From Bacteroidales bacterium (lineage in GTDB: Bacteria > Bacteroidota > Bacteroidia > Bacteroidales > Lentimicrobiaceae): 64,000 nucleotides of DNA. The position numbers and the translations under genes are program-made. The notes under the pieces were generated by a model. The model had not been told where the DNA came from and did not search any database. It worked only from the letters and a program-made list of their open reading frames with translations. The stretch's first letter is position 1. Every line of letters begins with the position of its first letter. The stretch lies in the NCBI GenBank assembly GCA_024636955.1, contig JAGXGB010000003.1, forward strand, positions 1 to 64,000, written 5' to 3'. Positions 3,137-62,427 of the stretch are shown one piece after another.

Positions 3137-3223
3137 TGGGCATTGAGTGCATAGATAGTCGGCATTGAGTGCAAAAATTGTGGGCATTGAGTGCATAGAT
3201 AGTCGGCATTGAGTGCAAAAATT
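3137..3223. repeat. Tandem array of four 22-bp units (two 44-bp super-units)
   Basis: The 13-mer GGCATTGAGTGCA recurs at 3139, 3161, 3183 and 3205, exactly 22 bp apart. The remaining 9 bp alternate between two versions (TAGATAGTC and AAAATTGTG), giving a near-perfect 44-bp super-repeat present twice. It begins on the base after the pyk stop codon and lies between the convergent pyk and comF genes. Confidence 0.95.
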
Positions 3224-3294
3224 CTAATATATTAAGGTTAATATTCCTTGGGCAATAAGGGTATAATATTCAAGCAATTCTATAAAAAAACTAC

Positions 3295-3990
3295 TTAGTG
3301 CAGCGCACACGCGATTGAGCAGATGCTGATTTTTATATCAGGGACCCCCATTAGTATCTGTGCGGCAGCCTCAATAGTAGATCCTGTAGTAATAACATCA
3401 TCTACCAGTAGTACATGTTGTCCGGCAAGTGTATTACTATCCTTTAACGCAAAAATTTCTTTCACATTTTCCCATCTGCTAAACCTTGCCTTGTGTGTTT
3501 GAGTTTCAGAATCAGTGGTTCTTACTAATGATGTTGTATCTACATCAGCATTCATTGGAACGGCTAAGCCTTTGGCAAACCATTCAGCTTGGTTGTAGCC
3601 TCTTAATGCCTCTTTTTTGGGGTGAAGTGGAATCGGAACGATGTAGATGATGTCCCTAAACATTGGGGATTGCAATAGTTTCTCACCGTAAATTGTTCCT
3701 ATGAAGTGTCCGATTTTTTTGTAACCTAAATATTTGAATTGGTGAATCAGATGTTGAACTTTGCCCCCCTTTGTAAAATAGTAATAAGATGCCGCTGCAT
3801 TGATGTGAATTTTCCCGACGAATTGATTTGCAACAGGGTTGTCTGTCATTAAATGAAAATGAGTTTGTGGCAAGAGAAACATGCATTCAGTGCATAAGCA
3901 CTCTTCATGATGTAATAGAGGATTATCGCAGCTAAAACAGAGTCGTGGATAGAAGAGTGATACAACGTCCTGCACGCAGTCTTTTAGCAT
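3295..3990 (-). CDS. comF: ComF family phosphoribosyltransferase-like protein
   Basis: A 231-residue ComF/GntX family protein, linked in other bacteria to DNA uptake or use of external DNA. The N terminus has a zinc-binding-type cysteine set (CFSC at 18-21 and CTEC at 33-36). The middle has PIPLHPKKEALRGYNQAEW, the family's PxPLH...RGxNQAE motif. The C terminus has the PRPP-binding loop VLLVDDVITTGST. The enzymatic reaction of this family is not settled. It lies downstream of the PpiD-like gene with a terminator between them, so it is probably transcribed separately. No -7 box was found upstream. Confidence 0.9.
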   Translation of the reverse strand: MLKDCVQDVVSLFYPRLCFSCDNPLLHHEECLCTECMFLLPQTHFHLMTDNPVANQFVGKIHINAAASYYYFTKGGKVQHLIHQFKYLGYKKIGHFIGTIYGEKLLQSPMFRDIIYIVPIPLHPKKEALRGYNQAEWFAKGLAVPMNADVDTTSLVRTTDSETQTHKARFSRWENVKEIFALKDSNTLAGQHVLLVDDVITTGSTIEAAAQILMGVPDIKISICSIACALH

Positions 3991-4071
3991 AAGGGATGAT
4001 ATAAAGCAGACTATAGTTTAGTTGATATAAATTTAGAAGATATTTCTATTCCAATGGTAGGTATAAAATAA

Positions 4072-4094
4072 AAAAGCTCCTATAAGGAGCTTTT
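4072..4094 (-). terminator. Rho-independent terminator after the PpiD-like gene
   Basis: Nine-base arms AAAAGCTCC and GGAGCTTTT with a 5-base loop, followed on the minus strand by a T-rich run. It sits 19 bp beyond the stop of the PpiD-like gene. Confidence 0.85.
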
Positions 4095-4112
4095 CTATTT
4101 TCTTGATTTATT

Positions 4113-6242
4113 TTAGTAGAACATTAAGCGATGATCTTCAATTTCTGATCTTTTCTTAAGAGCGTCATTAATCTCCCTCTGGCTTCTGGTAGTAAATGCG
4201 TTTGACATCATTCTCTTTTCAGTGGTGTAATCGTCTTTTGCAGTTACCTCATTAATCTTATCGATCACTAGCACAAAAACGCCCTGATTGCCTTTAATAG
4301 GCTTTGACATTTCACCAGCCTTAAGGTTGAAAATTGAGCCAAGAACTTCATCCTCTTTACCAAATCCAGGTAAGTTGCTTGCTCCTAATGAAATATCGGC
4401 TGTATCAACAGACATTGCAAGTGCAGGATAGTTTTTCTCAAGGTCAGCTTTTGACTTAACCTCAGAATTTATTTGCTCTATAAGTTTCTCTGCTTTCTTT
4501 TCACGAAGAACCATAGGTTCAATAAATTCTTTAATCTGCTCAAGTGTTGGATTGCCTTTTTCGCGAACTTCAGTTATAATAGCTACTATAAAGCGGCCAT
4601 CAAGGTCAAATACGTTTGAAACGTCCCCTTTTTCAATGTCTTCAGTAAATGACCAGCGAACAATTTCACGAGCGTTTTGTAAGCCGGGTAATGTGTTTTG
4701 ATCAACACTAATACGTTCAGCAACACGCTTTGTTAGTTTATTTTCTTCTACTTGCTTATCAAAGCTTTCCTGATCTTTTGCACTAGCTGCAAATTGGCTT
4801 GCCTGGGTATAAATATCCTGCATTGTACGTGAGCTGGCTTCAATTGCACGCTTAACAAAGGCAACCCTTACTTTCTTGGTAGGTGTTGTTTTACCGGTAA
4901 TCTTGATAATGTGATAGCCAAATTGTGTTTCAACTATAGTTACATCACCTACTTTTCCATCAAGTACAGCTGTGTTAAATTCTGGCACCATGGCACCATC
5001 AGCAAACCAGTTTAAATCACCGGCAGTTTTTGCAGCAGTTTGGTCTTCATTGACAGTTGAAGAAGCAATTTCATTGAATTTTGCACTGTTGTTTTTTACA
5101 ATGTTGTATACACTATCAGCTTTCGCTTTAGCCTGTTCCTTTGTTAGCTTGGTGTCAGGATTAACATTAGTACCTTGATAACTAATAAGAATGTGACTTG
5201 CCTTTAGTGAATCAGGGCGCACTTGGGTTTCTACCAGTCGAGCCATTTGATATAGGTTATTCTCAATATATGGTCCGAAGGTTGTACCTATTGGAGAATT
5301 AAACATTAACGAATCAAGCTGGTATGGTAGAGTTCCTTTTTTATACCATGTGCTGTCATACCTTTCATCAGAAACTGAATTAACGAAATCTTTTGCATTT
5401 TCAACAGCTATAAACTCAGCATAAAGGGCGTTAACGTCCTTATTGATTTTATCACGATCATTGTCTGATGCAATGATATCAAAACTTACATATTCAATAT
5501 CCCTGGAGGCTTCTTGCTGATATTTATACTTATTTTCCTCATAAAACTTTTTATAGTCAGCATCTGTCAAAGAAATTAAACTATCAGCAATAGCAGTATA
5601 AGGTAAACTATAGAAACGTACTGTTGCAGTAGTGCTACGGTTTTTATAGTCGCGTTCAGCAAATGCCTTTGGTACATAGAAAGCCTTTGAAACAAGGGTA
5701 CGATATTTAGTGTTTAGCCTATCCTCTTTAATAGCTTTTTCTATGGCGAGGTAGCGTTGTTTCATTTGAGGGTCAACTCTGTCAAGATTCTGAAGGAAGT
5801 TTACAACAGTTGCAGCGTCAAATTGACCAGTTTGAGGGTCACTAAAGCTTTGCCTGATATATTGATGTGGGTTCTTACCCCTTACAAGTTCATCAAGCTC
5901 TTCAGTAGTAACAGTTATTCCCAGTTCTGAAACTTGCTCCTGAAGGAGGGTTTCTGACAATACCTGATCCCAGGTTTGTTGCCTGATTTGGAATTGTTCT
6001 TCTTGAGTTAAACTTTCTTTGCCTGTATTAATTTGCTGAGTCTCAATGTTCTGTTCAACTCTTTGGTTGAAGTCGGTATAAAGAATCTTTTCACCATTAA
6101 CTTCACCTATCAGGTTAACGCCTCGTCCTCTTCCAGGAGTTCTGTTAGAAAGAAAATCACCAAGTACAAATGCAGCAAGCGCTATACCTATGATTATGAT
6201 AAGAAGTCCTGAACGTTTTCGAATATCTCCGATTAATGCCAT
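4113..6242 (-). CDS. PpiD/SurA-like membrane-anchored peptidyl-prolyl isomerase foldase
   Basis: A 709-residue periplasmic folding factor. One N-terminal membrane helix (about 13-31, LLIIIIGIALAAFVLGDFL) anchors it. A SurA_N-type chaperone region follows. A parvulin (PPIC) domain lies around residues 345-455, beginning with KASHILISY and ending with FGYHIIKITGK. The long C-terminal half resembles the chaperone part of PpiD. It would help outer-membrane and secreted proteins fold after crossing the inner membrane. It is the last gene of a minus-strand envelope cluster (coaX to ppiD), has its own -7 box just upstream and a strong terminator behind it. Length is slightly above that of E. coli PpiD. 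Confidence 0.9.
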   Translation of the reverse strand: MALIGDIRKRSGLLIIIIGIALAAFVLGDFLSNRTPGRGRGVNLIGEVNGEKILYTDFNQRVEQNIETQQINTGKESLTQEEQFQIRQQTWDQVLSETLLQEQVSELGITVTTEELDELVRGKNPHQYIRQSFSDPQTGQFDAATVVNFLQNLDRVDPQMKQRYLAIEKAIKEDRLNTKYRTLVSKAFYVPKAFAERDYKNRSTTATVRFYSLPYTAIADSLISLTDADYKKFYEENKYKYQQEASRDIEYVSFDIIASDNDRDKINKDVNALYAEFIAVENAKDFVNSVSDERYDSTWYKKGTLPYQLDSLMFNSPIGTTFGPYIENNLYQMARLVETQVRPDSLKASHILISYQGTNVNPDTKLTKEQAKAKADSVYNIVKNNSAKFNEIASSTVNEDQTAAKTAGDLNWFADGAMVPEFNTAVLDGKVGDVTIVETQFGYHIIKITGKTTPTKKVRVAFVKRAIEASSRTMQDIYTQASQFAASAKDQESFDKQVEENKLTKRVAERISVDQNTLPGLQNAREIVRWSFTEDIEKGDVSNVFDLDGRFIVAIITEVREKGNPTLEQIKEFIEPMVLREKKAEKLIEQINSEVKSKADLEKNYPALAMSVDTADISLGASNLPGFGKEDEVLGSIFNLKAGEMSKPIKGNQGVFVLVIDKINEVTAKDDYTTEKRMMSNAFTTRSQREINDALKKRSEIEDHRLMFY

Positions 6243-6269
6243 TTGTTGTTAAATTTTTTAAATAGGGTG

Positions 6270-6277
6270 CAAATTTA
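6270..6277 (-). promoter_or_regulatory. -7 promoter box of the PpiD-like gene
   Basis: TAAATTTG on the minus strand fits TAnnTTTG, 28 bp before the start codon. No good -33 element is visible. Confidence 0.5.
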
Positions 6278-6357
6278 CAAATAAACTGATAGGATAAAAA
6301 TAAAAATCCTTTAGAGGCTATATTTTTGTAAATAAAGGTGATACAACTAAAAGTTGG

Positions 6358-7698
6358 TTATTTAGAACCCCTGATTGTTGTTGTTTCATTTATCCAGCAA
6401 CCAACAGTATATGATTCACCTTCTTGCATATCCCGGAAAAAAAGATCGCTTGATGGTGGATAGTATTTTACATACTGAGCAATCTTTTCATTTGCTTGTG
6501 ATTCAACACTTCCATCTACTGATTTTGCCTTAATATATTTATCTATAGCAGCCCAAAACACTGTTTTTCCACCAAGGTCATCAACATCGCATATACCTGC
6601 ACTCATAGCATAAAGATCACCGATAATGATATATGCTTTGCCTTCATTTGGATTTAACTGAATTATTTTTTGCGCTGTACTTCTTGCCTGACTGTAGTTT
6701 CTGTTATTACTATGAATTCCTGCGAGGGCATATAGTGCTTTAATCTTTTCAGCTGGATCAGTATAGAGCTCTGCCGCTTCCTGCATGTAAGCTGCTGCAT
6801 TGTTCAGATCATTATTTTGGATTGAAAGACGACCCATTAAATATGCCGACTGTGCACCCGGTTCAAGCTTGTGAAGGTTGCCTGCAGCTCTGTAGAAAAG
6901 ATCACCCTCACCAGTACAGTTTTTACGGTCGAGTATTGTTGTAATATTTCTAAGTAAAACTGTGTCATTTGGTGTTTCTTGAAATTTCTTTCCATAAATG
7001 TTCACCAGGTCAGTGCATGAAGCATGTGGTTCAATTAAGATTTCTATGTTCGCCTTTACGTTTACCCAATTAGTTAAAGTTTTTTCATCTGAGGCAGCTT
7101 GGGCAATATTTTGGTCAACTATCGAAATGACCTTATCATAAACAGTAAAAATCTCACTTTTATCAATTGAGTCAATCATTGCTAACTGGATGGCAGTAGT
7201 TAAGTAATAAACTAAAACTGCGCCTTCTGAATTATTTCCTTGAAGTTCAACCGAACGCGCTATCCATGGAAATACTTGAACAGCCATTAAGGGATTGTTG
7301 GTGAGTGCATCAACACCTTTTCGTCCAAGTACATATCCTTCTCTCCCATAATACTTAATGCGCTGATCATATACCATCATTAGCGTATCAATTAGCTTAA
7401 AGCGTAATGAGTCATCTTTAGCTTCCTCTATCTGGTTGTCAACGATCTTAATTCCGTCAATGTAAATGTTTTGTGTAAGTGTAGGGCAATTGAAGAACAC
7501 CCACCTCCAATGGGGTAATGCATACGCATATAGCTTAATTTTAAAATATTCTCTGTAAAGAGACAGCTGTTCCCGGCACAATAATGAATCGGTTGTAGTG
7601 GGGTTTTGTTGCATTGTATCCTCAACAGGATTGCTTTGTGCTTTAATGTTGCTGAATTGAAAAACAACTAACAGTAGGAGGAGTAATTTGAGTTTCAT
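6358..7698 (-). CDS. TPR-repeat periplasmic protein, paralogue of the 9768-11123 gene
   Basis: A 446-residue protein with a signal peptide (residues 1-20, ending IKAQ) and a C-terminal half of tetratricopeptide-like helical repeats (for example AYLMGRLSIQNNDLNNAAAY and GKAYIIIGDLYAM). It is similar over its full length to the TPR protein encoded at 9768-11123. Both have LSLYRE-(F/Y), PHWRWVF-NCP, IDTLMMVYDQRI, YVLGRKG and the same ending YTVGCWINETTTIRG. Such proteins usually serve as scaffolds for protein assembly; the exact role is not known. It has its own promoter, part of which lies in a 22-bp tandem repeat. Confidence 0.85.
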   Translation of the reverse strand: MKLKLLLLLLVVFQFSNIKAQSNPVEDTMQQNPTTTDSLLCREQLSLYREYFKIKLYAYALPHWRWVFFNCPTLTQNIYIDGIKIVDNQIEEAKDDSLRFKLIDTLMMVYDQRIKYYGREGYVLGRKGVDALTNNPLMAVQVFPWIARSVELQGNNSEGAVLVYYLTTAIQLAMIDSIDKSEIFTVYDKVISIVDQNIAQAASDEKTLTNWVNVKANIEILIEPHASCTDLVNIYGKKFQETPNDTVLLRNITTILDRKNCTGEGDLFYRAAGNLHKLEPGAQSAYLMGRLSIQNNDLNNAAAYMQEAAELYTDPAEKIKALYALAGIHSNNRNYSQARSTAQKIIQLNPNEGKAYIIIGDLYAMSAGICDVDDLGGKTVFWAAIDKYIKAKSVDGSVESQANEKIAQYVKYYPPSSDLFFRDMQEGESYTVGCWINETTTIRGSK

Positions 7699-7732
7699 GC
7701 TCTTAAGTTTATAACATTTAATAAATAAAGGA

Positions 7733-7765
7733 CAAATGTACTATATTTTATCTAAATGAAACAAA
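7733..7765 (-). promoter_or_regulatory. Promoter of the 6358-7698 TPR gene
   Basis: On the minus strand a TTTG (7762-7765) is followed after 21 bp by TACATTTG (7733-7740), matching the Bacteroidota -33/-7 pair, 35 bp before the start codon. The -33 element lies inside the first unit of the 22-bp repeat. Confidence 0.65.
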
Positions 7766-7797
7766 TACGTATTGGAAATGAAACAAATACGTATAGG
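7754..7797. repeat. Two tandem 22-bp units
   Basis: The 18-mer AAATGAAACAAATACGTA starts at 7754 and again at 7776. The full 22-bp units differ at one base (ATTGG against ATAGG). It lies in the gap between the CNNM/CBS gene and the TPR gene and overlaps the -33 region of the latter. Confidence 0.95.
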
Positions 7798-7841
7798 AGC
7801 TTAAGGCAACACAAATAACGTTTAATATACCTATTGTGCTA

Positions 7842-17550: not shown

Positions 17551-18465
17551 ATGGAAACTCTTTCAGAAAATAGAAAGACCAATAAAAGGAATCCACTCCT
17601 TCTCGTAATTGTAATCCTTATTGCAGCAGTTGCTTTACTTGCATGGCTATTGCTGTCAACCCGGTCAAAGCTAGGGAATATGATTGAGGAGAAAGAAAAT
17701 CAACGAGTAGAACTGCAGTATGAACTCGATTCCCTCATTACAGAACACAATGAAATGAAGGAAGGCTATGGAGCTTTATCTGATTCCTTATCATCGCAGG
17801 ATAGCCTAATTCAAGCAAACGCGGTTGAAATCAGGAAACTGCTTGATACACAGTACGAATTTTACAAAGTGAAAAAGAAGCTTGACAGATTGCGGGTAAT
17901 ATCTCAAGGATATCTTAAGCAGATGGATTCACTATACAATGTGAATAGAGAATTGCGTGAAGAGAATGAGCAAATACGCACAAGTTATAGACAAGAACAA
18001 GAGAAATCCAGCACCTTACAAAAGGACAAAGCAGTTCTTACAGAAAGGGTTACCCAGGCAGCCTATTTGAAAGCATATAAAATAACAGCAACCGCGGTAA
18101 AAGGTAGTGGTGAAAAAGAAAGACCAGTTGATAAAGCTAGGCGTGTTGAAAAGATAAAGGTTTGTTTTACTCTTGGTGAAAACCCCTTAATAAGCTCAGG
18201 AAGAAAAGATATTTATATCCGAATTGCAGGACCTGATAATAAAATATTAGCCCGAGGTGTTGGTGATGAGTACTCTTTTAAATACAAGGGAGAAGTGCTG
18301 CAGTATTCATCCAAGCATACACTCAATTACATTAATAAAGCAATTGATGTGTGCGATTATTGGAATAACCGTTCATCAAATGAGGACATGCAAGTTGGAA
18401 CTTACGTGATAACTGTATATGCTGACGAGGAAGAAATAGGTCAAAGCACATTTGAGTTAAAGTAA
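17551..18465 (+). CDS. Membrane-anchored coiled-coil protein of unknown function
   Basis: A 304-residue protein that I do not recognise. A short basic N terminus is followed by one membrane helix (about 15-36, NPLLLVIVILIAAVALLAWL). A charged, heptad-like coiled coil runs from about 40 to 165 (QRVELQYELDSLITEHNE, KVKKKLDRLRVISQ, REENEQIRTSYRQEQEKS). A compact C-terminal domain of about 120 residues follows, with strand-like segments (KIKVCFTLGENPLISSGRKD, KDIYIRIAGPDNKILARG, GTYVITVYADEEEIG). Topology suggests the coiled coil and domain lie in the periplasm. It is monocistronic: promoter before it and a terminator about 155 bp after it. The start at 17551 is set by the promoter. Confidence 0.8.
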   Translation: METLSENRKTNKRNPLLLVIVILIAAVALLAWLLLSTRSKLGNMIEEKENQRVELQYELDSLITEHNEMKEGYGALSDSLSSQDSLIQANAVEIRKLLDTQYEFYKVKKKLDRLRVISQGYLKQMDSLYNVNRELREENEQIRTSYRQEQEKSSTLQKDKAVLTERVTQAAYLKAYKITATAVKGSGEKERPVDKARRVEKIKVCFTLGENPLISSGRKDIYIRIAGPDNKILARGVGDEYSFKYKGEVLQYSSKHTLNYINKAIDVCDYWNNRSSNEDMQVGTYVITVYADEEEIGQSTFELK

Positions 18466-18620
18466 ACATTGAAGCATTTGGAGAGTTCAATATTAAGATC
18501 CTAAATTAATGCAGTGAGAATATTAAGAGATAAAATTAAAGTGCATTTGCTGAGCTGTTAAAGATTTCAAAACATCATAGAGATGCTTAAAGATTAAGCT
18601 GATAAACCATCAGAGAGTAT
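18446..18620. repeat. Degenerate direct repeats, about 32-bp spacing
   Basis: Segments containing GCA(T/G)TT or CATCA followed by a GAG...TTAA(A)GA core recur loosely from the end of the 17551 gene to the terminator. The spacing is irregular (about 28-37 bp). It looks like a decayed array; the call is weak. Confidence 0.35.
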
Positions 18621-18736: not shown

Positions 18737-18750
18737 AGTATTTAAATACT
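18737..18750. repeat. 14-bp perfect palindrome abutting the 22-bp array
   Basis: AGTATTTAAATACT is its own reverse complement and ends one base before the first unit of the seven-unit array. Confidence 0.7.
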
Positions 18751-18751
18751 T

Positions 18752-18905
18752 ACATCAGCAATAAGTAGATCAGGCATCAGCAGTAAGAAGAAAAGGTATT
18801 AGCAATTAGTAGATCAAGCATCAGCAGAAAGTAGAAAAGGCATTTACAGAAAGTAGAGAAGGTATTAACAATAATAAGAGAAGGTATCAGCAATAAATGG
18901 AGAAG
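18752..18905. repeat. Seven tandem 22-bp units upstream of tetR
   Basis: Units start at 18752, 18774, 18796, 18818, 18840, 18862 and 18884 with no insertions. The consensus is roughly G(C/T)AT(C/T)AGCA(A/G) followed by (T/A)AAGTAGA and (G/A)AAG. Divergence between units is marked but the 22-bp register is exact. Because 22 is not a multiple of 3 and stops occur, it is not coding. It lies between a terminator and the tetR promoter. Confidence 0.95.
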
Positions 18906-19005
18906 GTAATTGAGTTAAGAATCCTACATCTCATCAATTTTTTATTCAATGTTAATAAATAGTTAAATTTCAGGAAACTGTCAAAGTATATATTGTTTCC
19001 TTAAC

Positions 19006-27465: not shown

Positions 27466-27930
27466 ATGTTCAATACCCGTAGGATGCGTACGCCTGATTG
27501 GTACATAGCCTGGACAATGGTAATACTTCAATTTGTCATGCTGGGAGTATTGGTCTTTACCGGTTCTTTAATTCCTGATAAATGGTGGACAATAATGCTT
27601 ATGCTACTTGGAGCTTTTTTTGGCTTATGGGCAATATATACAATCCGACTGGGTAATCTAAGCATTTTACCTTATGTGAAAGAAGGTGGAATAATGGTAG
27701 CCAAAGGCCCTTACCGTTTTATACGTCACCCAATGTATACAGGACTGATTCTAATTAGCTGGGCATTGGTGGGTGGTCATTTCACATATTTCAGACTCAT
27801 AGCAGCAGCAGTGTTAACCTTAGCCCTGATTATAAAGCTTCATTTAGAGGAAACTTATCTGAAAAAAGCATTTGCTCCATACACTGAATACACAAGGCAA
27901 ACCAAGAAACTTATACCATTTATATACTGA
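27466..27930 (+). CDS. Isoprenylcysteine/phospholipid methyltransferase-like membrane protein
   Basis: A 154-residue integral membrane protein of the ICMT/PEMT-like group. It has about four helices and the family's C-terminal signature: GPYRFIRHPMYTG, then EETYLKKAFAPYTEYTRQTK and a Pro close to the end. Members use S-adenosylmethionine to methylate lipids, quinone-like or unknown small molecules; the bacterial substrate here is unknown. The preceding gap of 111 bp has no clear promoter. Its stop codon lies inside the first unit of a 22-bp repeat. Confidence 0.85.
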   Translation: MFNTRRMRTPDWYIAWTMVILQFVMLGVLVFTGSLIPDKWWTIMLMLLGAFFGLWAIYTIRLGNLSILPYVKEGGIMVAKGPYRFIRHPMYTGLILISWALVGGHFTYFRLIAAAVLTLALIIKLHLEETYLKKAFAPYTEYTRQTKKLIPFIY

Positions 27931-27959
27931 CCAACAGAAAAACTTCTACTGACCAACAG
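27926..27959. repeat. Direct repeat with 22-bp offset across the ICMT-like stop codon
   Basis: ACTGACCAACAG occurs at 27926-27937 and at 27948-27959. The first copy contains the TGA stop of the plus-strand gene. The second runs up to the end of pheS on the other strand. Confidence 0.8.
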
Positions 27960-27966
27960 TAAATGG

Positions 27967-31423: not shown

Positions 31424-32617
31424 ATGGAAAGAAAACTGAATGAGCTTGCAAATCTGGTAGAAAAATTAAATGACCGAATAATAAAAGCAAAGGAAAGCAA
31501 TGCAATTAGTGCTATTGAAACGGATATAATGCTCCACCTGCTTCGTCAATGCTATCTTGTAACAGAACAACTAAAAACTACTGAAAGTGACTCTGAAAAG
31601 CCCAAGTCAGAGTATGTTGCCCCAGTTGTTCAGGTTATACAGGAATCAAGAGAGGTACAACACGAAAAAGCCGGGGAGGTCACTCATTCTCAAGCTAGGG
31701 AGCAAGCGCAACCAGCAGTTGAATCGTATAGTAAAACAGAGGAAGTTATTGTTGTTCAGCCCGAACCTGCTGAAGAAAATGATGATTTTCAGACAGAACA
31801 TGTGGGTGAATTTATTGCTCCTCAGTCAGTACCTGTTGAAGAATTTAATATTCCTCAGCCCGAACCAGTAGAAGAGGTTAATGTTCCTCAGCCCAAACCA
31901 GTAGAAGAGGTTAATGTTCCTCAGCCTGAACCTGAACCACAAATTATGTTGCCTATTGAAGAGATACCGGTAATGTCGTTTGCCAAGGTTGAAGTACCTC
32001 ATGATATTCAACCCGATCCCCAGTCGCATATTGATGAAAGCTCAACCACAAATATATACAGCGCAGTTGGTGCAATAGCACCAATAACCCCTGAACCTGC
32101 TGAGCCTGTTAAATCCGACTATCAAAGCCATGCCGGAACCTACTCTCGCGATACAAATTCTGACAGACAGGCTTCAATATCATCATCACAACAGAATACG
32201 CAAAGTAGCTCATTTAACCAAAAACAGGATACTATAACACCAATGAAGACTGCCAGACAAACCGGCGACCTGTTTGGTGGACAAACAATTGCTGACAAGC
32301 TAAAAAATGAAGCGCCTTCGCTCATTGATAAAATAAATGAAGGCAGACAAGATCAAACATTGGCCCACAAGATGCAGTTAAAGCCAATCAATGACCTTAA
32401 AACTGCTATCGGGATAAATGAAAAGTTTCAGTTTGTGAATGATCTGTTTGAAGGGAGAATAGATCTCTATAATGATGCTATCAGCAGATTGAATAACTGC
32501 GGTTCAGCATTTTCAGCTGATTCTATTATGGATGAATATCTGGCAGCTCATGGTTGGAATACTAATGCTGAAGCCTATGTTAAACTAAGAACCTTCATCA
32601 CAAGGCGCTATCTCTAA
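31424..32617 (+). CDS. Hypothetical protein with Pro/Glu-rich 11-residue repeats and conserved C-terminal helical domain
   Basis: A 397-residue, probably cytoplasmic protein. It has a short helical N terminus (ERKLNELANLVEKLNDRI), then a long disordered, acidic, proline-rich middle (about 60-280). The middle contains four 11-residue repeats of the type PQPEPVEEVNV. A C-terminal helical domain of about 110 residues follows, with LKTAIGINEKFQFVNDLFEG and ISRLNNCGSAFSADSIMDEY. I recall similar C-terminal domains as widespread in Bacteroidota hypothetical proteins, but know no function. It is 11 bp upstream of the M28 peptidase gene and probably co-transcribed with it and rsmI. Confidence 0.8.
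   Translation: MERKLNELANLVEKLNDRIIKAKESNAISAIETDIMLHLLRQCYLVTEQLKTTESDSEKPKSEYVAPVVQVIQESREVQHEKAGEVTHSQAREQAQPAVESYSKTEEVIVVQPEPAEENDDFQTEHVGEFIAPQSVPVEEFNIPQPEPVEEVNVPQPKPVEEVNVPQPEPEPQIMLPIEEIPVMSFAKVEVPHDIQPDPQSHIDESSTTNIYSAVGAIAPITPEPAEPVKSDYQSHAGTYSRDTNSDRQASISSSQQNTQSSSFNQKQDTITPMKTARQTGDLFGGQTIADKLKNEAPSLIDKINEGRQDQTLAHKMQLKPINDLKTAIGINEKFQFVNDLFEGRIDLYNDAISRLNNCGSAFSADSIMDEYLAAHGWNTNAEAYVKLRTFITRRYL
31820..31951 (+). repeat. Four in-frame 33-bp repeats within the 31424 gene
   Basis: Units start at 31820, 31853, 31886 and 31919. The second and third are almost identical at the DNA level (one changed codon, Glu to Lys). Each encodes 11 residues such as PQPEPVEEVNV; the outer units are diverged. 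Confidence 0.9.
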
Positions 32618-33945: not shown

Positions 33946-34611
33946 ATGGCTAAACTCTTTATTGTACCTACTCCTGTCGGGAATCTTGAGGACATTACTC
34001 TCAGGGCGATCAGGACATTGAAAGAGGTGGGCCTGATACTTGCTGAGGACACAAGGAAAACTGGAATACTGCTGAAACATCACGGAATCGACAATAGGAT
34101 GCAATCGCATCACCAACATAATGAACACCATACCGCAGAGCTTATCGCCCAACGTATTAATTCAGGTGAAACTGTTGCATTGGTTACCGATGCTGGCACA
34201 CCCGGTATATCTGATCCCGGATTTCTTCTTATACGTACATGTGTTGAAGCAGGTATTGATGTTGAATGTTTGCCGGGAGCTACAGCTTTTGTTCCTGCAT
34301 TAGTGTGTTCAGGATTACCCTGCGACAGGTTCTACTTTGAAGGCTTTCTGCCTCATAAGAAAGGAAGGAATACCCGGTTAAATTACCTTGCAAAACTCGA
34401 TCAAACAATCGTTTTGTATGAATCACCATTCAGGCTGGCGAAAACCCTTACCCAGCTTGCTGAGACCTTAGGTAATGAAAGAAAAGCATGCGTATCAAGA
34501 GAGATTTCCAAAATATTTGAAGAACACAGGCGAGGTACATTGGAGGAGCTTGCCTTGCATTATTCACAACATGAGCCAAAAGGTGAAATTGTAATTACAG
34601 TTGGTGCTTAA
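33946..34611 (+). CDS. rsmI: 16S rRNA (cytidine-1402 2'-O) methyltransferase
   Basis: Methylates the ribose of C1402 in the 16S rRNA decoding centre with S-adenosylmethionine. The 221-residue protein shows the tetrapyrrole-methylase-fold hallmarks: LFIVPTPVGNLEDITLRA, LAEDTRKTGILLKHHGI, VTDAGTPGISDPGFLLIR, LPGATAFVPALVCSGLP and FEGFLPHKKGRN. It lacks the extra C-terminal domain found in E. coli RsmI, a common short form. Its last codons and stop form the start of a 66-bp-offset repeat. Confidence 0.95.
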   Translation: MAKLFIVPTPVGNLEDITLRAIRTLKEVGLILAEDTRKTGILLKHHGIDNRMQSHHQHNEHHTAELIAQRINSGETVALVTDAGTPGISDPGFLLIRTCVEAGIDVECLPGATAFVPALVCSGLPCDRFYFEGFLPHKKGRNTRLNYLAKLDQTIVLYESPFRLAKTLTQLAETLGNERKACVSREISKIFEEHRRGTLEELALHYSQHEPKGEIVITVGA

Positions 34612-34694
34612 AATCAAGGAATTGCAAGAACAGAATGTGCCTGAAACCGTAGAATTGTAATTTCAGCGGGAGCTTAAAATTCAGTAAATCATAA
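34585..34694. repeat. Diverged duplication of the rsmI 3' end, 66-bp offset
   Basis: The segment AATTGTAATT(A/T)CAG...GCTTAAAAT around the rsmI stop (34587-34614) recurs at 34653-34680, exactly 66 bp later (3 x 22). The copy includes the TAA. Identity between the two copies is high for about 28 bp and fades beyond. Confidence 0.8.
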
Positions 34695-37427: not shown

Positions 37428-37463
37428 ATTGTTCATGTAAATTTGGGTTATGTTAGGTTCATC

Positions 37464-37536
37464 TCTACCTTTTCTCTACCTTTCCTCTACCTTTGGTCTA
37501 CCATTGGTCTACCCTTAGGGTAGAGAAACCGTAGAG
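37464..37536. repeat. 11-bp tandem repeats with inverted 11-bp partners
   Basis: TCTACC starts at 37464, 37475, 37486, 37497 and 37508, always 11 bp apart. Inverted copies follow: GGTAGA at 37519 and CGTAGA at 37530, also 11 bp apart. The centre TCTACCC-TTA-GGGTAGA is a perfect 7-bp-arm hairpin. It lies between a terminator and the promoter of the transglutaminase-like gene. Confidence 0.95.
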
Positions 37537-56904: not shown

Positions 56905-56970
56905 TTGATCGATTAACTTTAATTCATATTTGAATGACTATTATGACAAGTAGTCAAAAATGACAGTTTG

Positions 56971-56988
56971 CAAAAATAAGTATTTTTG
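56971..56988. promoter_or_regulatory. Palindromic pair of -7 boxes between miaB and topA
   Basis: CAAAAATA-AG-TATTTTTG: a -7 box on each strand facing outward, separated by 2 bp. The minus box is 67 bp from miaB; the plus box is 126 bp from topA. No -33 elements at normal distance were found. Confidence 0.45.
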
Positions 56989-57113
56989 AACCGCCTCATT
57001 ATTAAATTGTTGTAAATAAAAATCACAAGTTTGCAAAACCATTCCATTTTTAATGCTTTACTTTGTGCCCGTTTTCAGAAATATTACTGTCGGCTTAATC
57101 CTTAATTCAACTT

Positions 57114-59495
57114 ATGTCAAAAAATCTGGTTATCGTAGAATCCCCTGCAAAAGCAAAGACTATAGAAGGTTTTCTGGGCAAAGACTTTACTGTTAAATCG
57201 AGTTTTGGTCACATCCGTGACTTATCGAAAAAGCAATTAGGTGTTGACATTGAACACGATTTTGAGCCTAACTACGAAATATCACCTGATAAGCAAAAGT
57301 TAATAAAGGAACTAAAGAAACTGGCCAATGAAGCTGATATTGTGTGGCTTGCATCTGATGAAGACCGCGAAGGAGAAGCTATTTCATGGCATTTGAAAGA
57401 AGCCCTTTCACTTGATGAAAAGAAAACAAAACGTATCGTATTTCATGAGATTACCAAGAGTGCCATAACCCACGCTATTAACAATCCGCGCGGTATTGAC
57501 AAGAATTTGGTAGATGCTCAACAAGCCCGGCGAGTACTTGACCGTTTGGTTGGTTTTGAGATTTCACCTGTTCTTTGGCGCAAAGTAAAACCTGCCCTTT
57601 CAGCCGGCCGTGTGCAATCAGTTGCAGTGCGACTGATCGTAGAACGTGAAGATGAGATTAAGTCGTTCAACTCATCTTTTAATTATAGGGTGACCGCTAC
57701 ATTCATTCTTCAGGATAATGCAGGAAAGAATTCTATTGGTGCTGAATTGTCAAAAAGATTTAACACTGTTGAAAATGCTTATGGCTTTATGGAAAAATGC
57801 CTCGGCGCCCGCTATAATGTAAGTGACGTTGAAACAAAACCTGCTAAGAAGTCACCGGCCCCACCGTTCACTACTTCTACGCTGCAACAGGAGGCCAGCA
57901 GAAAACTCGGTATGTCAGTTGCCCGCACTATGCTTGTGGCCCAAAAGCTTTATGAAAGCGGTAAGATAACATACATGCGTACTGACTCGGTCAATTTGTC
58001 AAATACAGCAATTGATATGGCTAAAAAAGAAATTTCAGGCTTTTTTGGCGATAAATATGTGAAGGTGCGCAATTATACTACTAAATCAAAAGGCGCACAG
58101 GAAGCTCATGAAGCAATACGCCCAACTGATTTGCACAAACAAAAGGTTGGTGGTGATGCCTCGGAACAACGCTTATACGACTTAATCTGGAAAAGAACGA
58201 TAGCTTCACAGATGGCCGATGCTGAACTTGAACGCACTACCGTGAATATTAATATTACCAATAATTCCAAAGTATTAGAAGAAAGGTTTATTGCAAAAGG
58301 TGAGGTTATTAAGTTTGACGGCTTCTTGAAAGTTTATCTTGAGTCAACTGACGATGAAGCAGCAGATGAGGATGAAGGATTATTACCTCCAATTAAAACG
58401 GGTGATGAACTTGATCTTAAGGAAATGCTTGCTACTCAGAAGTTCACTCAACAACCACCGCGTTATACAGAAGCCAGCCTGGTAAAGAAACTTGAAGAAC
58501 TTGGTATTGGACGTCCATCTACATATTCACCAACCATCTCAACTATCCAGAAAAGGGAGTATGTTGTTAAGGAAGACAGGCCGGGTACTAAAAGGGAGTT
58601 TGATCTTATCACCTTAAAGAATGATAAGATAGCCCGCGAAAGAAAATCAGAAAATACCGGTGCTGAAAAGTCTAAGCTTTTCCCTACTGAGATAGGCACT
58701 TTGGTTACTACTTTTTTGATGCAGTACTTTGAGAATATCCTCGACTACAATTTTACAGCCAATGTAGAAAAGGAATTTGATGATATCGCACAAGGACTAA
58801 AGGTCTGGAACCAGATGATCAAAGAGTTCTATAAGCCATTCTCACTTCAAGTAAAGCAAACGATGGAGACATCGGAGAAAGTTAAGGCGGAACGACTTTT
58901 AGGCGTTGACCCTGAAAGCGGGAAGAACGTGTATGTGAGAATCGGTCGCTTTGGTCCAATGGTTCAAATTGGTGAGGCTGAGAATGAAGAAAAACCAAGG
59001 TTTGCAGGTTTGAAGAAAGGCCAAACAATGGAATCAGTAGATCTTGAAGAAGCACTCAAACTTTTTGATTTCCCCAAACCACTGGGCATGTATGAACAGG
59101 CAGAAATGACAGTTGCCATTGGTCGTTTTGGTCCTTATGTAAAACACAAATCAGCTTTTTACTCATTGGCAAAAACTGATGACCCATCTTCCATTGATGC
59201 TGAACGTGCCATTCAAATTATTGAGGACAAACGTAAGAAGGAAAGTGAGCGTTTAATCAAGCAATTCACTGAAGATGAAACTATTCAGGTATTAAATGGT
59301 CGCTACGGACCTTACATTGCGCAAGGCAAAAACAACTACAGGATACCCAAGAGCACCGATCCGAAATCACTTACATTTGAGCAAGTTAAGGCTATTATAG
59401 GCACTTCGGGCGATGCACCAAAGAAAAGTGCGAAAGCAAAAGCTTCTCCGGCAAAGAAAACCAAAGCTACCACAACTAAAAAGGCGAAGAAGTAA
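57114..59495 (+). CDS. topA: DNA topoisomerase I
   Basis: A type IA topoisomerase relaxing negative supercoils. The TOPRIM domain is VIVESPAKAKTIEGFLG with ASDEDREGEAISWHL. The active-site Tyr is in ITYMRTDSVNLS. The 793-residue protein lacks the Cys4 zinc ribbons of E. coli TopA; instead the C-terminal part has repeats of the IGRFGP(M/Y)V type (YVRIGRFGPMVQIGE, VAIGRFGPYVKHKSA, LNGRYGPYIAQGK) and a basic Lys/Ala tail. This is the common Bacteroidota form. A 33-bp-spaced repeat and a palindrome follow the stop. Confidence 0.97.
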   Translation: MSKNLVIVESPAKAKTIEGFLGKDFTVKSSFGHIRDLSKKQLGVDIEHDFEPNYEISPDKQKLIKELKKLANEADIVWLASDEDREGEAISWHLKEALSLDEKKTKRIVFHEITKSAITHAINNPRGIDKNLVDAQQARRVLDRLVGFEISPVLWRKVKPALSAGRVQSVAVRLIVEREDEIKSFNSSFNYRVTATFILQDNAGKNSIGAELSKRFNTVENAYGFMEKCLGARYNVSDVETKPAKKSPAPPFTTSTLQQEASRKLGMSVARTMLVAQKLYESGKITYMRTDSVNLSNTAIDMAKKEISGFFGDKYVKVRNYTTKSKGAQEAHEAIRPTDLHKQKVGGDASEQRLYDLIWKRTIASQMADAELERTTVNINITNNSKVLEERFIAKGEVIKFDGFLKVYLESTDDEAADEDEGLLPPIKTGDELDLKEMLATQKFTQQPPRYTEASLVKKLEELGIGRPSTYSPTISTIQKREYVVKEDRPGTKREFDLITLKNDKIARERKSENTGAEKSKLFPTEIGTLVTTFLMQYFENILDYNFTANVEKEFDDIAQGLKVWNQMIKEFYKPFSLQVKQTMETSEKVKAERLLGVDPESGKNVYVRIGRFGPMVQIGEAENEEKPRFAGLKKGQTMESVDLEEALKLFDFPKPLGMYEQAEMTVAIGRFGPYVKHKSAFYSLAKTDDPSSIDAERAIQIIEDKRKKESERLIKQFTEDETIQVLNGRYGPYIAQGKNNYRIPKSTDPKSLTFEQVKAIIGTSGDAPKKSAKAKASPAKKTKATTTKKAKK

Positions 59496-59560
59496 GCTCG
59501 ACACACAAGCAGTTAAGCTTCAGAACTCAATAAACACACAAGTGGTAAGACTTAAATTCG
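59493..59560. repeat. Diverged direct repeat after topA, about 33-bp offset
   Basis: CACACAAG occurs at 59502 and 59535 (33 bp apart), each followed by a (T)TAAG-CTT-like stretch with one indel. The array starts at the topA stop codon. Confidence 0.65.
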
Positions 59561-59579
59561 TAATCCACTGACTACCTGA

Positions 59580-59601
59580 TTCAAAAAACCTGGTTTTTGA
59601 A
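59580..59601. terminator. Palindrome behind topA, possible bidirectional terminator
   Basis: TTCAAAAAACC and TGGTTTTTGAA form a nearly perfect 22-bp inverted repeat about 85 bp beyond topA. A short loop and A/T runs suggest termination; the strength is uncertain. Confidence 0.5.
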
Positions 59602-59739
59602 ATGGTCCACAGTACTGGATCCAAAGATTGGCAAGGTGACTTACATAAGTTTTCAGGGAGGATACAATAAAGCATTGAAAGATTTTCAAATCAACGCCCT
59701 GATTTATCGGCAGGTATTCCAAACTTCATAAAAATTCCG

Positions 59740-59747
59740 TACGTTTG
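59740..59747 (+). promoter_or_regulatory. -7 promoter box of the arginase-like gene
   Basis: TACGTTTG fits TAnnTTTG and ends 17 bp before the ATG at 59765. Confidence 0.55.
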
Positions 59748-59764
59748 AACTTTCAATCATACGG

Positions 59765-60940
59765 ATGGACCTTTCTATATACTTTGAACCTGTACCTATA
59801 AGTGTGACCAACCTTATCACACCCGGAAAAACCTGCTTAGGTGATGTAATGAGAATTTACCGGCTTGAAGGCCAGTTTCCTCAAACTTCTGATTACGATA
59901 TAGCACTTATTGGGGTTCCTGATGACAGGGGAGCAATTAATAACGAGGGCTGCAACGATGCGCCTGACGAGGTTCGCAAGTATCTTTATGATCTTTATCA
60001 GGGTTCGTGGAAATCAAAAATTGCTGATCTTGGAAACCTGAAGCCCGGACATTCGGAAGCCGACACTATATTTGCCCTTGCCGAGGTGATGGCACTTCTT
60101 ATTGGTAATAAAATTTTACCGGTAATCATTGGAGGCAGCCAGAGTCTTACTTATGCCATGTATAAGGCATATGAGCAAATGGAAAAGATCATCAACGTTG
60201 TGGTCATCGATCCGAGGTTCGACCTTAAAAGTGAGGAAACCACTGACTTACATTCAAGAAATTACCTCAGTCAGATCATCCTGTTAAAGCCAAACTACCT
60301 CTTTAACTATACAAATATCGGATACCAGACATATTTTGTTGACCAGTCAGAAATAGACCTTATGTCAAAGCTTCTATTCGATAGTTATCGGTTAGGACAA
60401 ATAAATAGCGATTTTAAGGAGATAGAGCCTCTTGTGCGCAATGCTGACATGATATCATTTGACATGGGAGCTATAAAGTCATCTGAAGCACCCGGTAACG
60501 GCAATGCTTCACCCAATGGTTTCACGGGTGAGCAGGCTTGTCAGGCAGTAAGATATGCTGCGATGGGTGAAAAGCTTTCATCAATAGGCTTTTTTGAATT
60601 AAACCCTTCTTATGATAGGAATGGAACAACTGCTTATCTTCTTGCGGAGATGATCTGGTATGTGTTTGAGGGATTTAACCAGCGTAAGAATGACTTCCCG
60701 GCACCTAACAGTGATGAGTTTATCAAGTACACTGTACCTACTGCTGATTTTAAAGATGGTATTATTTTCTTTAAAAGTCGCAAAACTGATCGTTGGTGGA
60801 TGGAAGTCATCTGCGGAGATGATAATCAAGTAAAATTTGCAAGCCATTATATGGTTCCATGCTCTTACAAAGATTACCTCACAGCTTGCAACAATGAAAT
60901 ACCTGACAGGTGGTGGCAGGTTTATCAGAAATTAATGTAG
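59765..60940 (+). CDS. Arginase/formimidoylglutamase-fold protein with missing metal ligands
   Basis: A 391-residue member of the ureohydrolase (arginase-like) superfamily, placed by length, the DIALIGVPDDRGAINNEG-type N terminus and three aligned signature regions. In active enzymes these read GGDHS, DAHxD and SxDxDxxDP. Here they read GGSQS, DPRFD and SFDMGAIKSS, so several manganese ligands (the His of GGDH, the His of DAHxD and the second Asp of SxDxD) are replaced. Downstream APGNGNASPNGFT still matches the family. It is probably not a standard arginase; it could be a pseudoenzyme or bind differently. Similar genes are commonly annotated formimidoylglutamase. Its last codons are part of a 33-bp repeat. 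Confidence 0.75.
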   Translation: MDLSIYFEPVPISVTNLITPGKTCLGDVMRIYRLEGQFPQTSDYDIALIGVPDDRGAINNEGCNDAPDEVRKYLYDLYQGSWKSKIADLGNLKPGHSEADTIFALAEVMALLIGNKILPVIIGGSQSLTYAMYKAYEQMEKIINVVVIDPRFDLKSEETTDLHSRNYLSQIILLKPNYLFNYTNIGYQTYFVDQSEIDLMSKLLFDSYRLGQINSDFKEIEPLVRNADMISFDMGAIKSSEAPGNGNASPNGFTGEQACQAVRYAAMGEKLSSIGFFELNPSYDRNGTTAYLLAEMIWYVFEGFNQRKNDFPAPNSDEFIKYTVPTADFKDGIIFFKSRKTDRWWMEVICGDDNQVKFASHYMVPCSYKDYLTACNNEIPDRWWQVYQKLM

Positions 60941-61019
60941 TACTATCAAGTGGTTTATCAGAAGTTACTATGGTGTCATGAAATGATTTATCAGAAATTA
61001 ATGTAGTATTATCAAGTTA
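60921..61019. repeat. Three tandem 33-bp units across the arginase-like stop codon
   Basis: TTTATCAGAA starts at 60921, 60954 and 60987, exactly 33 bp apart. Units 1 and 3 are nearly identical over the full 33 bp; unit 2 is more diverged. Unit 1 contains the last codons and TAG stop of the arginase-like gene. The array ends 7 bp before the next ATG. Confidence 0.95.
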
Positions 61020-61026
61020 TAACAGT

Positions 61027-62322
61027 ATGATGAAGCAAATTATCTTTTCAATAGTGCTCCTTGCAACACTTGGAGTGTTTGCCTACAGCATGAAGCGATT
61101 GTGGTATAACTTTTCACTTACCCACAAATATCCAGTTGGCAATTGGGGTGAGCGCTTTATAATAATGCTCAAGGTGGCAATAGGGCAAACAAAGATTTTC
61201 AGATATCCTATCGCAGGGTTTTTCCATGCGCTTGTATTCTGGGGGTTTATTGTCATTACACTTGGAAGTATTGAGATGGTAGTTGACGGCATCATAGGAC
61301 GAGAACGCGTATTTGCACCAACAGGCTGGTTTTATGATTTCGTAACCGCATCGGGTGACATTATGGCTTATGTGATCATCGTAAGCATACTGGTTTTTAT
61401 AGGAAGACGTCTCTTTATTAGGATCAAAAGGTTTTACGGCATTGAGATGAAGCCCAAATCAAAGATCGATGCCCTGATAGCCCTTACAATCATTCTCCTG
61501 TTAATGGTTTCACTTGCCGGATTAAACCTGGCATATTACCAGATGCATACTGCTGATTATGAAGGGCTTTACCCGATAAGCGCATTACTTGCTCCTTCAC
61601 TATTTGGTGGATTAAATGCACAAGGGTTGCATATTATCCATGAAATTAGCTGGTGGAGTCACATCCTTCTTATTTTCCTATTTGCAAACATTCTTCCTTA
61701 TTCAAAGCACTTTCATGTATTTACTTCTGTCCCCAATGTATTTCTTACCAGATTGGGTCCTTTAGGCTACCTGCAGAATATGCCGGCAATTACTTCTGAG
61801 ATAAAATACATGCTTTACCCTGAAACAGCAGAAGTACCCGCTGAAGCAGGAACAGTTAGATACGGCGTTAAGGAAAGCAATGATGTAACCTGGAAGAATT
61901 ACCTCGACTCATTAGCTTGCACAGAATGCGGACGCTGTACGGATAATTGCCCTGCCAACATCACAGGTAAGAAGCTTTCGCCCCGTAAGATATTTGTTGA
62001 CCTGAGGGCTCGAATGAAGGAATATGCCGCAGGAACACGCGAAAAAGGAATGACTTTTGAAGACGGCAAGTCATTCCTACACACCTATGTTACAGCCGAA
62101 GAGCTATGGGCATGTACAACCTGCAATGCCTGCGCAACGGAATGCCCGGTCAACATTAATCACCCTTCACTTATTCTTGACATGCGCCGCTTCATGGTAA
62201 TGGAGGAAGCAGCCGCACCGGCAGGACTAAACGCCATGTTTGCCAATATAGAGAACAACGGCGCTCCGTGGCAATATCCACCTGAAGACAGGCTAAACTG
62301 GCTTAATGATCTCAATAAGTAG
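61027..62322 (+). CDS. Membrane-bound iron-sulfur oxidoreductase subunit (NarI-like plus two [4Fe-4S] sites)
   Basis: A 431-residue inner-membrane electron-transfer protein. The first two thirds hold about five or six helices with His residues able to bind heme b (FFHALVFWGF, LHIIHEISWWSHILL). The C-terminal third has two [4Fe-4S] motifs, CTECGRCTDNCP and CTTCNACATECP. It matches the NarI-like and HdrD/GlpC-like N-terminal parts of membrane iron-sulfur oxidoreductases such as the EtfAB:menaquinone oxidoreductase (EMO, DUF224) family. The matching CCG-domain part is the separate next gene. Likely passes electrons from a soluble carrier to menaquinone; the partner is not visible. Confidence 0.85.
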   Translation: MMKQIIFSIVLLATLGVFAYSMKRLWYNFSLTHKYPVGNWGERFIIMLKVAIGQTKIFRYPIAGFFHALVFWGFIVITLGSIEMVVDGIIGRERVFAPTGWFYDFVTASGDIMAYVIIVSILVFIGRRLFIRIKRFYGIEMKPKSKIDALIALTIILLLMVSLAGLNLAYYQMHTADYEGLYPISALLAPSLFGGLNAQGLHIIHEISWWSHILLIFLFANILPYSKHFHVFTSVPNVFLTRLGPLGYLQNMPAITSEIKYMLYPETAEVPAEAGTVRYGVKESNDVTWKNYLDSLACTECGRCTDNCPANITGKKLSPRKIFVDLRARMKEYAAGTREKGMTFEDGKSFLHTYVTAEELWACTTCNACATECPVNINHPSLILDMRRFMVMEEAAAPAGLNAMFANIENNGAPWQYPPEDRLNWLNDLNK

Positions 62323-62427
62323 CACGTATCAGGAGACCATTCTGTACAAAACCGGAAACCACTTAGTATACAATCAGGATAGATTTAAATACAACGAGAA
62401 GTCATTTTAGTAAACAACCAGAGGACA
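62319..62427. repeat. Degenerate array of five ~22-bp units filling the gap between the iron-sulfur genes
   Basis: Units starting at 62319, 62341, 62363, 62385 and 62406 (22, 22, 22, 21 bp) share a pattern of the type TTAGTATACAA-CAGGA. Identity is low (about half the bases between neighbours for the first units) but the register holds from the stop codon of one gene to 4 bp before the next ATG. Confidence 0.6.

Follow-up and report, generated by a model that had tools for sequence, protein, structure and literature searches.

Unrelated tandem repeats on exact multiples of 11 bases hint at DNA duplication measured in helix turns

Why should tandem repeats that lie in different gaps between genes, and whose units differ from one locus to the next, share periods that are multiples of 11 bp? 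The question is raised by a 64,000-nucleotide stretch of a Bacteroidales genome (hereafter the window), in which the first-pass annotation had picked out ten such repeats. For each of them the best same-lag run (lags 8-70) was compared with those of 200 dinucleotide shuffles of the segment. Eight were reached by none of the 200 shuffles (3139, 7754, 18752 and 27926, all with 22 bp; 34587 with 66; 37464 with 11; 60921 with 33; and the coding repeat at 31820 with 33), while two (59502 and 62341) stayed at chance level (Table 1). TRF, an independent program, reported 25 rows in the window, many with other short periods; those at multiples of 11 were 3134-3223 (22/44), 7754 (22), 18753-18908 (22/44/66), 31808 (33), 37463 (11) and 60919 (33).

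Table 1. Repeat features of the window, with positions counted from its first base
Feature	Position	Strand	Description
Class II array	3137..3223		44-bp unit x2.0; copies identical, each made of two 22-bp half-units
Class II array	7754..7798		22-bp unit x2.0, 96% identity; flanked by two minus-strand ORFs
Class II array	18753..18908		22-bp unit x7.1; identity 0.70-0.77 whatever the copy distance
Class II duplication	27925..27963		22 bp; 17 aligned bases (94%)
Coding repeat	31789..31932	+	33-bp units of 11 residues each, within an ORF
Class II duplication	34587..34680		66 bp offset; 86% over 28 bases
Class I element	37462..37535		five CTCTACCTTTN-like 11-bp units, central dyad CCCTTAGGG, then inverted 11-bp units; hairpin predicted
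Earlier-noted 33-bp repeat	59501..59542		9-base match; P 0.145, no excess over shuffles
Class II array	60919..61017		33-bp unit x3; copy 1 lies partly in the 3' end of an ORF that ends at 60940
Earlier-noted 22/22/21 repeat	62332..62427		P 0.99, no excess over shuffles

The survey was extended to the window's own genome, of which 61 pieces were sampled (1.07 of 3.22 Mb, with gaps of at least 25 bp totalling 101.6 kb); two shuffled sets served as controls for the array detector, and array periods were tested against moduli 5-30. At threshold 16 this sampled third yielded 119 intergenic arrays and the two shuffled sets none (lowering the threshold to 13 gave 148, and 2.0 per shuffled set). Multiples of 11 accounted for 56 of the 119 (22 arrays with period 11, 15 with 22, 10 with 33, 5 with 44, and 2 each with 55 and 66), a count that supersedes the 32 of 80 found earlier in 737 kb by a less strict detector. 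The second peak lay at period 7 (28 arrays), and the genome is tandem-repeat-rich in general, with periods 9 and 10 present too.

With the window left out, periods in the range 15-70 bp were exactly divisible by 11 for 31 of 52 intergenic arrays, where 4.6 would be expected (p 8.6e-20); six lay one base short of a multiple, two one base beyond and 13 elsewhere. Within the tested range only the modulus 11 and its double, 22, were significant. The spectral optimum of these periods was at 10.9-11.05 (0.69), as against 0.44 at 10.5, and the 10.5-bp phase of B-DNA was rejected on this ground as the exact step. TRF placed 33 of 79 arrays outside the window on multiples of 11, 26 of the 33 with zero indels. 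Neither a period histogram without enrichment nor an equal repeat density in shuffled sequence, the outcomes that the first-pass annotation had named as contrary to its claim, was observed, and on the sampled third the quantised periods are confirmed as a real, genome-wide phenomenon. Ordinary slippage, with the enrichment a product of chance or of the detector, could draw on the general abundance of tandem repeats (periods 7, 9 and 10), but its probability is next to negligible: the excess outside the window has a p of about 9e-20, two programs agree on it, the shuffled sets held no arrays at threshold 16, and the same detector placed only 3 of 14 arrays of pooled relatives on multiples of 11.

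These relatives, a comparison that the first-pass annotation had proposed, were parts of nine members of the genus (122.9 kb of gaps). For periods of 15-70 bp their 3 of 14 stands against 34 of 55 in the own genome, a moderate contrast (Fisher p 0.014), and the array counts are further apart, at 55 in 101.6 kb and 14 in 122.9 kb. Among near-identical (young) duplications with a period of at least 15, multiples of 11 made up 20 of the 47 intergenic cases and 6 of the 18 coding ones in the own genome, and 0 of 9 and 1 of 7 in the relatives G001, G008 and G003 taken together; for coding arrays as a whole the counts were 10 of 40 and, in the same three genomes, 1 of 16. Forty of 54 named loci were scanned as well: 25 mostly titled Bacteroidales or Bacteroidetes gave 8 arrays and no multiple of 11 (threshold 14), two from the same genus gave no arrays, and 13, mostly Clostridia, gave 6 arrays, one of them with period 11.

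The arrays are two distinct phenomena, which we term Class I (period 11) and Class II (22, 33, 44, 55 and 66 bp). The description of the unit sequences as unrelated, with no single dispersed family, holds for Class II, where 31 of 41 arrays have no relative at any other place sampled, but not for Class I, where 21 of 24 have one; the single cause that the first-pass annotation had envisaged for all loci had merged the two, the period-11 arrays being dispersed inverted-repeat elements.

Class I consists of dispersed families of inverted 11-bp arrays that are predicted to form long hairpins (z -4.3 to -10.0 for the six elements folded). Its inverted-partner score averages 14.2 against 8.6 in shuffled sequence, and a small dyad within each 11-bp unit was rejected (2.88 matched pairs, compared with 2.90 once the units were shuffled). 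Family A gave 19 match rows at 10 places and family B 12 at 11, and among the 21 genomes searched both were found in the own genome only. The element of the window (RNA fold z -5.2) shares a 27-base match (37508-37534) with a family A locus (L049) and has relatives at L019, L049 and L148; it is absent from the matches of a whole-genome search with family A. As dispersed, intergenic, hairpin-forming palindromes present in many copies, Class I elements are similar to REP/BIME and MITE-like palindromes as generally understood, from which they differ in that their arms are 11-bp tandem arrays and no REP-associated transposase was found. The REP-associated Y1 transposase (PF01797) gave no match in the own genome (93% complete) and is present in 10 of 13 genomes searched, and such a transposase as the driver of Class I was rejected accordingly. 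The 11-bp direct repeats also recall iteron and parC-type sites, but no partition or initiator gene adjoins Class I at six family A-type loci: a Pfam scan of the 10 proteins beside them returned no partition or replication-initiator family.

Could Class II be derived from Class I? All arrays might have begun as Class I-like 11-bp repeats that later expanded by unit groups and decayed, an account that we regard as quite improbable. It is favoured by the presence of Class I in the same genome, by the 22-bp similarity kept in five of seven 44- and 66-bp units, by three of the 32 shorter units (22 or 33 bp), whose lag-11 identity is at least 0.40, and by a 22-bp array of G003 (L184) that by eye resembles paired 11-mers. 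The other 29 of the 32 are without such similarity, and hidden 11-bp repeats were rejected on this count as the general make-up of 22- and 33-bp units, the three being exceptions; across consensus units of the 41 Class II arrays, lag-11 identity (0.282) is at the level of other lags, and lag-22 identity in the nine units of 44-66 bp is 0.494. Inverted partners are few in Class II (8.8 against 7.7 shuffled, where Class I differs far more from its shuffles), and G008 has Class I-like arrays and no multiples of 11 above 15, G018 two Class II-like arrays and no Class I (small samples in both). RNA structure as a general Class II feature was rejected on the folding of two arrays in the window (3130-3230 with z -3.0 and 18750-18895 with z -0.3), and Rfam at the gathering threshold found one tRNA and nothing else in the whole window.

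With three of the 41 Class II arrays set aside (one side without a gene), 20 of the remaining 38 have a stop codon no more than 30 bp away, and 12 of the 38 have a start at that distance or less. The position just behind stop codons is hence a fair description but an unspecific one, since proximity to stops is equally common for period 7 (20/41) and other periods (17/35). In the window, the array at 3137 starts directly behind the stop codon of a pyruvate kinase ORF (1706-3136), the duplication at 27925 reaches into the 3' end of an ORF ending at 27930, and at 34587 the end of an ORF (stop at 34611) recurs downstream; in the sample, 10 of 41 arrays overlap coding DNA by 5 bp or more. Convergent gaps are enriched (11 of 38 arrays in 15% of gap bases, p 0.02), and divergent ones hold fewer (4 of 38 in 25%, p 0.06). 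Gaps with Class II arrays are also longer than their counterparts: those with the arrays at 3137, 7754 and 60919 measure 158, 143 and 86 bp, as compared with syntenic gaps of 14 and 47 bp in G003 for the first two and of 36 (G008) and 55 bp (G003) for the third. Overall, four comparable gaps span 86-184 bp in the own genome and 14-55 bp in relatives (five comparisons, medians 143 and 36 bp), whereas the 49 comparisons at array-free gaps gave 115 and 99 bp (p 0.006). At the nine places compared, the relatives' gaps proved free of arrays.

These contexts bear on the main rival for Class II, selection for helical phase, in which locus-specific sites of protein binding or bending would retain only same-face duplications. 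The exact spacing across many copies (the 26 of 33 indel-free TRF arrays) and the A-tract periodicity of the genome, which peaks at 10.9, argue for it, as do invariant columns in excess of a random placement of changes in three of nine multi-copy arrays, a pattern that would fit a selected site and that shared ancestry would give as well. It is nonetheless rather unlikely: because unit sequences differ between loci, many different binding proteins would be needed, and the rarity of arrays in divergent (promoter) gaps as against convergent ones, the array-free gaps of relatives, the average lack of excess lag-11 identity within units and the multiples of 11 in coding DNA (10 of 40, against 1 of 16) all argue against it. 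The first-pass annotation had left duplication in helical-turn steps and phase selection side by side; the quantum of 11 that it read off is borne out, and duplication is the better idea for periods of 22-66 given the unrelated sequences, the compact gaps of relatives and the depletion in divergent gaps.

We favour, with a probability of roughly 0.43, a lineage-specific mutational process in which any local DNA is directly duplicated in tandem in whole multiples of 11 bp, with paired nicks, fill-in and end joining as the likely machinery. Local DNA would be duplicated irrespective of its sequence, in steps of 11 bp or about one turn of an (underwound) helix; new copies would persist where gene function permits, and most 44- and 66-bp forms would stem from later duplication of unit groups. 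A rigid enzyme complex on one face of the helix may nick both strands a whole number of turns apart, and filling-in of the staggered break and joining of its ends (by Ku) would leave a tandem copy whose length equals the distance between the nicks. Mutation rather than selection, the paired nicks, the end joining and the helix turn as ruler are all inferred. That the duplication machinery has a ruler of one helical turn built in, giving lengths of n x 11 bp by a mutational or a programmed route, we put forward tentatively.

Single factors were considered as causes. Ku is encoded in the own genome and in 3 of 13 genomes overall, and was rejected as a sufficient cause, since G003 and G007 carry it and have few arrays. 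Among 17 TopA sequences, own-specific changes at conserved positions (agreement of 15 or more of the 16 relatives) occur only from residue 632 on, and a changed TopA core was rejected by this comparison. Helix pitch alone does not explain the quantum, because G005 has the same A-tract peak at 10.9 and its two arrays include no multiple of 11; A-tract pitch was rejected as sufficient on that basis. Whole-copy array ends, as junctions without microhomology would give, are only mildly in excess (12 of 41 against 7.3 expected in Class II; 7 of 28 against 5.3 for other periods), too slight an excess to establish a blunt join. A mobile element or integrase that left target-site duplications of whole helical turns behind would explain fixed-length duplications, the signature of staggered integration, and would accord with counts that fall with length (15, 10, 5, 2 and 2 for 22, 33, 44, 55 and 66 bp). 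We consider it highly improbable, as copies are contiguous, with no insert between them, in the arrays inspected, and the genome has no Y1 (REP-associated) transposase, in a search that covered Y1 only.

How do the arrays compare with known systems? In the literature searched (open-licence papers, by titles and abstract openings) no match was found for tandem repeats in multiples of 11 bp. Bacterial VNTRs and minisatellites, as generally described, have intergenic head-to-tail copies with their own unit at most loci; the arrays here are likewise head-to-tail, with units of about 10-100 bp, but their unit lengths are multiples of 11, and we know of no minisatellite set with an 11-bp ruler. CRISPR arrays differ, as unique spacers are lacking here and copies are contiguous in the arrays inspected. 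The repeats of Borg elements are similarly pervasive, independently arisen, genome-specific and located in both gaps and genes; in the accessible portion of their description (PMC9879509) they differ in divisibility by three in ORFs, an A-bias, copies that are perfect and partial repeats at the flanks, with no mention there of an 11-bp quantum. Intergenic heptamer repeats (TAACTGA) share one fixed period at many intergenic loci, but have period 7 and one common sequence according to the part of the source consulted (PMC4679880), and the period-7 peak of the own genome is separate; unlike such STRR-type repeats, Class II has periods of 22-66 and mostly unique units. The 10-11 bp A-tract periodicity has an equal length scale and is discussed alongside the pitch of the supercoiled helix, yet in the excerpts available (PMC7537859, PMC3940949, PMC4060949) it is a weak base-composition signal with no discrete tandem copies. 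A mutational precedent is the topA R168C mutator of Escherichia coli, a TopA mutant in which, as far as the available part of the report goes (PMC6954433), tandem duplications arise de novo and pre-existing repeats are not needed; its lengths are 2-19 bp as against 22-66 in 11-steps here, and the conserved part of TopA is here without own-specific change.

The same source, in that part, presents the origin of tandem repeats from non-repeated DNA as an open question (PMC6954433). Unrelated repeats on exact multiples of 11 bases hint that DNA is duplicated here by a process that counts helix turns, and quantised duplication lengths offer a direct handle on repeat origin, with the step length placing limits on possible enzyme geometries. 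Relatives with a weaker or absent signal provide a natural comparison for locating the gene responsible. If the helical-turn ruler is true, intergenic DNA in this lineage would grow in quantised steps, through a process with helical-turn control of length.

Within the sampled third of this Bacteroidales genome (3.22 Mb, 83 contigs, 93% complete), which comprised 61 pieces (the window, i.e. bases 1-64000 of contig C43, and 60 further stretches; together 972.8 kb of coding DNA and 101.6 kb of intergenic DNA, as delimited by a simple 80 aa ORF rule rather than a gene finder), a simple ungapped lag detector (threshold 16) recovered 119 intergenic arrays, against 0 in two shuffled sets. The first-pass annotation's claim that intergenic repeats here have periods in multiples of 11 bp held at this scale, as 56 of the 119 arrays did so. 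With the window excluded, multiples of 11 made up 31 of 52 arrays of period 15-70 (4.6 expected), and among the moduli 5-30 tested there only 11 and 22 were significant. TRF, an independent program, assigned 33 of 79 arrays to multiples of 11 (26 of the 33 without indels) and also listed the main arrays that had been picked out by eye in the window. The best real-valued period was 10.9-11.05, with a poorer fit at 10.5. Eight of the ten original examples withstood dinucleotide shuffling, those at 59502 and 62341 did not, and no TRF array was found in the degenerate A-rich stretch that precedes a 22-bp array and had been flagged as a misfit.

Among individual periods, 7 was the most frequent in the sampled genome (28/119 intergenic arrays); many of the heptamer arrays, at several loci, were TTAGCCT/CTAACCC/AAGGCTA-like and reached up to 45 copies. 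Period-9 and -10 arrays with a common GTTCAA/TTGAAC core lay at five loci. Genome G001 had its own period-8 arrays (6 of its 15; stretches L063, L067 and L072), several of them GATTCAAA-like. In five coding arrays a 33-bp unit corresponded to 11-residue repeats.

Period-11 arrays (Class I, of which families A-E are a part) mostly had relatives elsewhere in the sample (21/24). In many of them the units to the left and right of a dyad at the centre (in several copies of family A, CCCTNAGGG) are oppositely oriented, and the elements are thus predicted to fold into long hairpins (z-scores of -4.3 to -10.0 for the six elements folded). Across three genomes an inverted unit lay within 90 bp of 21/29 period-11 arrays (5.8 expected), or 10/22 by a stricter score. 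Families A and B occupied 10 and 11 places, respectively, in their own genome and were found in none of the other genomes among 21 searched (12 of these genus members); the period-11 arrays of G008 and G003, by TopA the closest among the genus members compared (85% and 80%), had other sequences, with an inverted unit in 3/3 and 1/2. These features suggest that Class I is a rapidly changing type of palindromic dispersed element. The window's Class I element was missing from the matches of a whole-genome search with family A. Another dispersed palindrome, around GGACAGGTC / GACCTGTCC, recurred beside or within arrays (stretches L051, L135, L053, L050, L020, L043 and L151).

Coordinates and units of the repeats and of the Ku gene (L numbers, sampled stretches)
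Feature	Location	Unit or character
Class I family A		GTAGNSTAACC
Class I family B		ACAAGGTTGAT
Class I family C		CGTTCGCATAY
Class I family D		AAGACGCTTAT
Class I family E		ACATAGAGATG
Class I element	window 37462-37535	similar to L019, L049, L148
Degenerate stretch	window 18446-18620	A-rich
Class II duplicated pair	window 34587	gene end including stop codon
Coding array	window 31789-31932	33 bp
Coding array	L007 2018	33 bp
Coding array	L018 2490	33 bp
Coding array	L045 11448	33 bp
Coding array	L051 1844	33 bp
Heptamer array	L061 16598-16910	7 bp
GTTCAA/TTGAAC array	L043 11464-12021	9 or 10 bp
GTTCAA/TTGAAC array	L151 13589	9 or 10 bp
GTTCAA/TTGAAC array	L057 12411	9 or 10 bp
GTTCAA/TTGAAC array	L020 11622	9 or 10 bp
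GTTCAA/TTGAAC array	L137 3009	9 or 10 bp
Ku gene	G000:C11, L012 1419-1952	

Class II arrays (periods 22, 33, 44, 55 and 66) mostly lacked relatives in the sample (31/41, threshold 13). Their consensus units had an 11-bp internal identity (mean 0.282) at the level of other lags, except that 3 of the 32 units measuring 22 or 33 bp had at least 0.40. As 5 of 7 units of 44 and 66 bp retained 22-bp similarity (0.58-0.82), most of these look like higher-order lengths, and 22, 33 and 55 like primary ones. Inverted partners were near background (8.8 vs 7.7; strong in 2/34). The annotated position behind stop codons was borne out for 20/38 arrays (within 30 bp; 12/38 lay as close to a start) and proved unspecific, being equally common at period 7 (20/41) and the remaining periods (17/35). 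Class II was enriched in convergent gaps and tended to depletion in divergent ones. Coding DNA was overlapped by 5 bp or more in 10/41 arrays.

Syntenic comparisons with G008 and G003 (58, at 51 gaps) suggest that the arrays are insertions arisen in this lineage. At array-bearing gaps (nine comparisons: five Class II at four gaps, two Class I at one gap, one period 7, one period 26) the medians were 158 bp here and 36 bp in the relatives, where no array was found, as against 115 and 99 bp for the 49 array-free comparisons (p 0.001). The Class II comparisons gave 158/14, 143/47, 86/36, 86/55 and 184/34 bp (p 0.006); the period-26 gap showed no expansion (90 vs 103 bp). Multiples of 11 accounted for 34/55 arrays of period 15-70 here and 3/14 in parts of nine pooled genus relatives (122.9 kb of gaps; Fisher p 0.014), a moderate contrast between this one genome and the relatives sampled. 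One of the three came from G003 and two from G018, a hint resting on two arrays within 8.7 kb of gaps. In 25 named loci, whose titles mostly read Bacteroidales or Bacteroidetes, there was 1 array of period 15-70, a non-multiple.

Young near-identical duplications were multiples of 11 in 20/47 intergenic and 6/18 coding cases, compared with 0/9 and 1/7 in G001, G008 and G003 together (coding arrays: 10/40 vs 1/16). Since the signal appears in these young duplications and spans mutually unrelated sequences, gaps of all three orientations and genes, a duplication process fits better than a shared binding function. Selection for phased sites, the main rival, would account for the invariant columns exceeding random in 3 of 9 multi-copy arrays, an excess that shared ancestry could equally produce. 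We give the duplication process somewhat over two chances in five, slightly reduced because the contrast with relatives is moderate and stop-codon nearness unspecific.

Mutated TopA can give de novo tandem duplications in E. coli (PMC6954433); the TopA encoded here had no change before residue 632 at positions common to at least 15 of 16 relatives. Ku occurred in this and two more of the 13 genomes searched, and its presence among relatives did not predict arrays. Array ends were only mildly biased to whole copies. Duplications may arise by staggered nicks, made by a hypothetical enzyme, followed by fill-in and joining, so that their length would equal the nick spacing; a ruler of one helical turn would be the natural outcome of an enzyme complex working on one face of the DNA.
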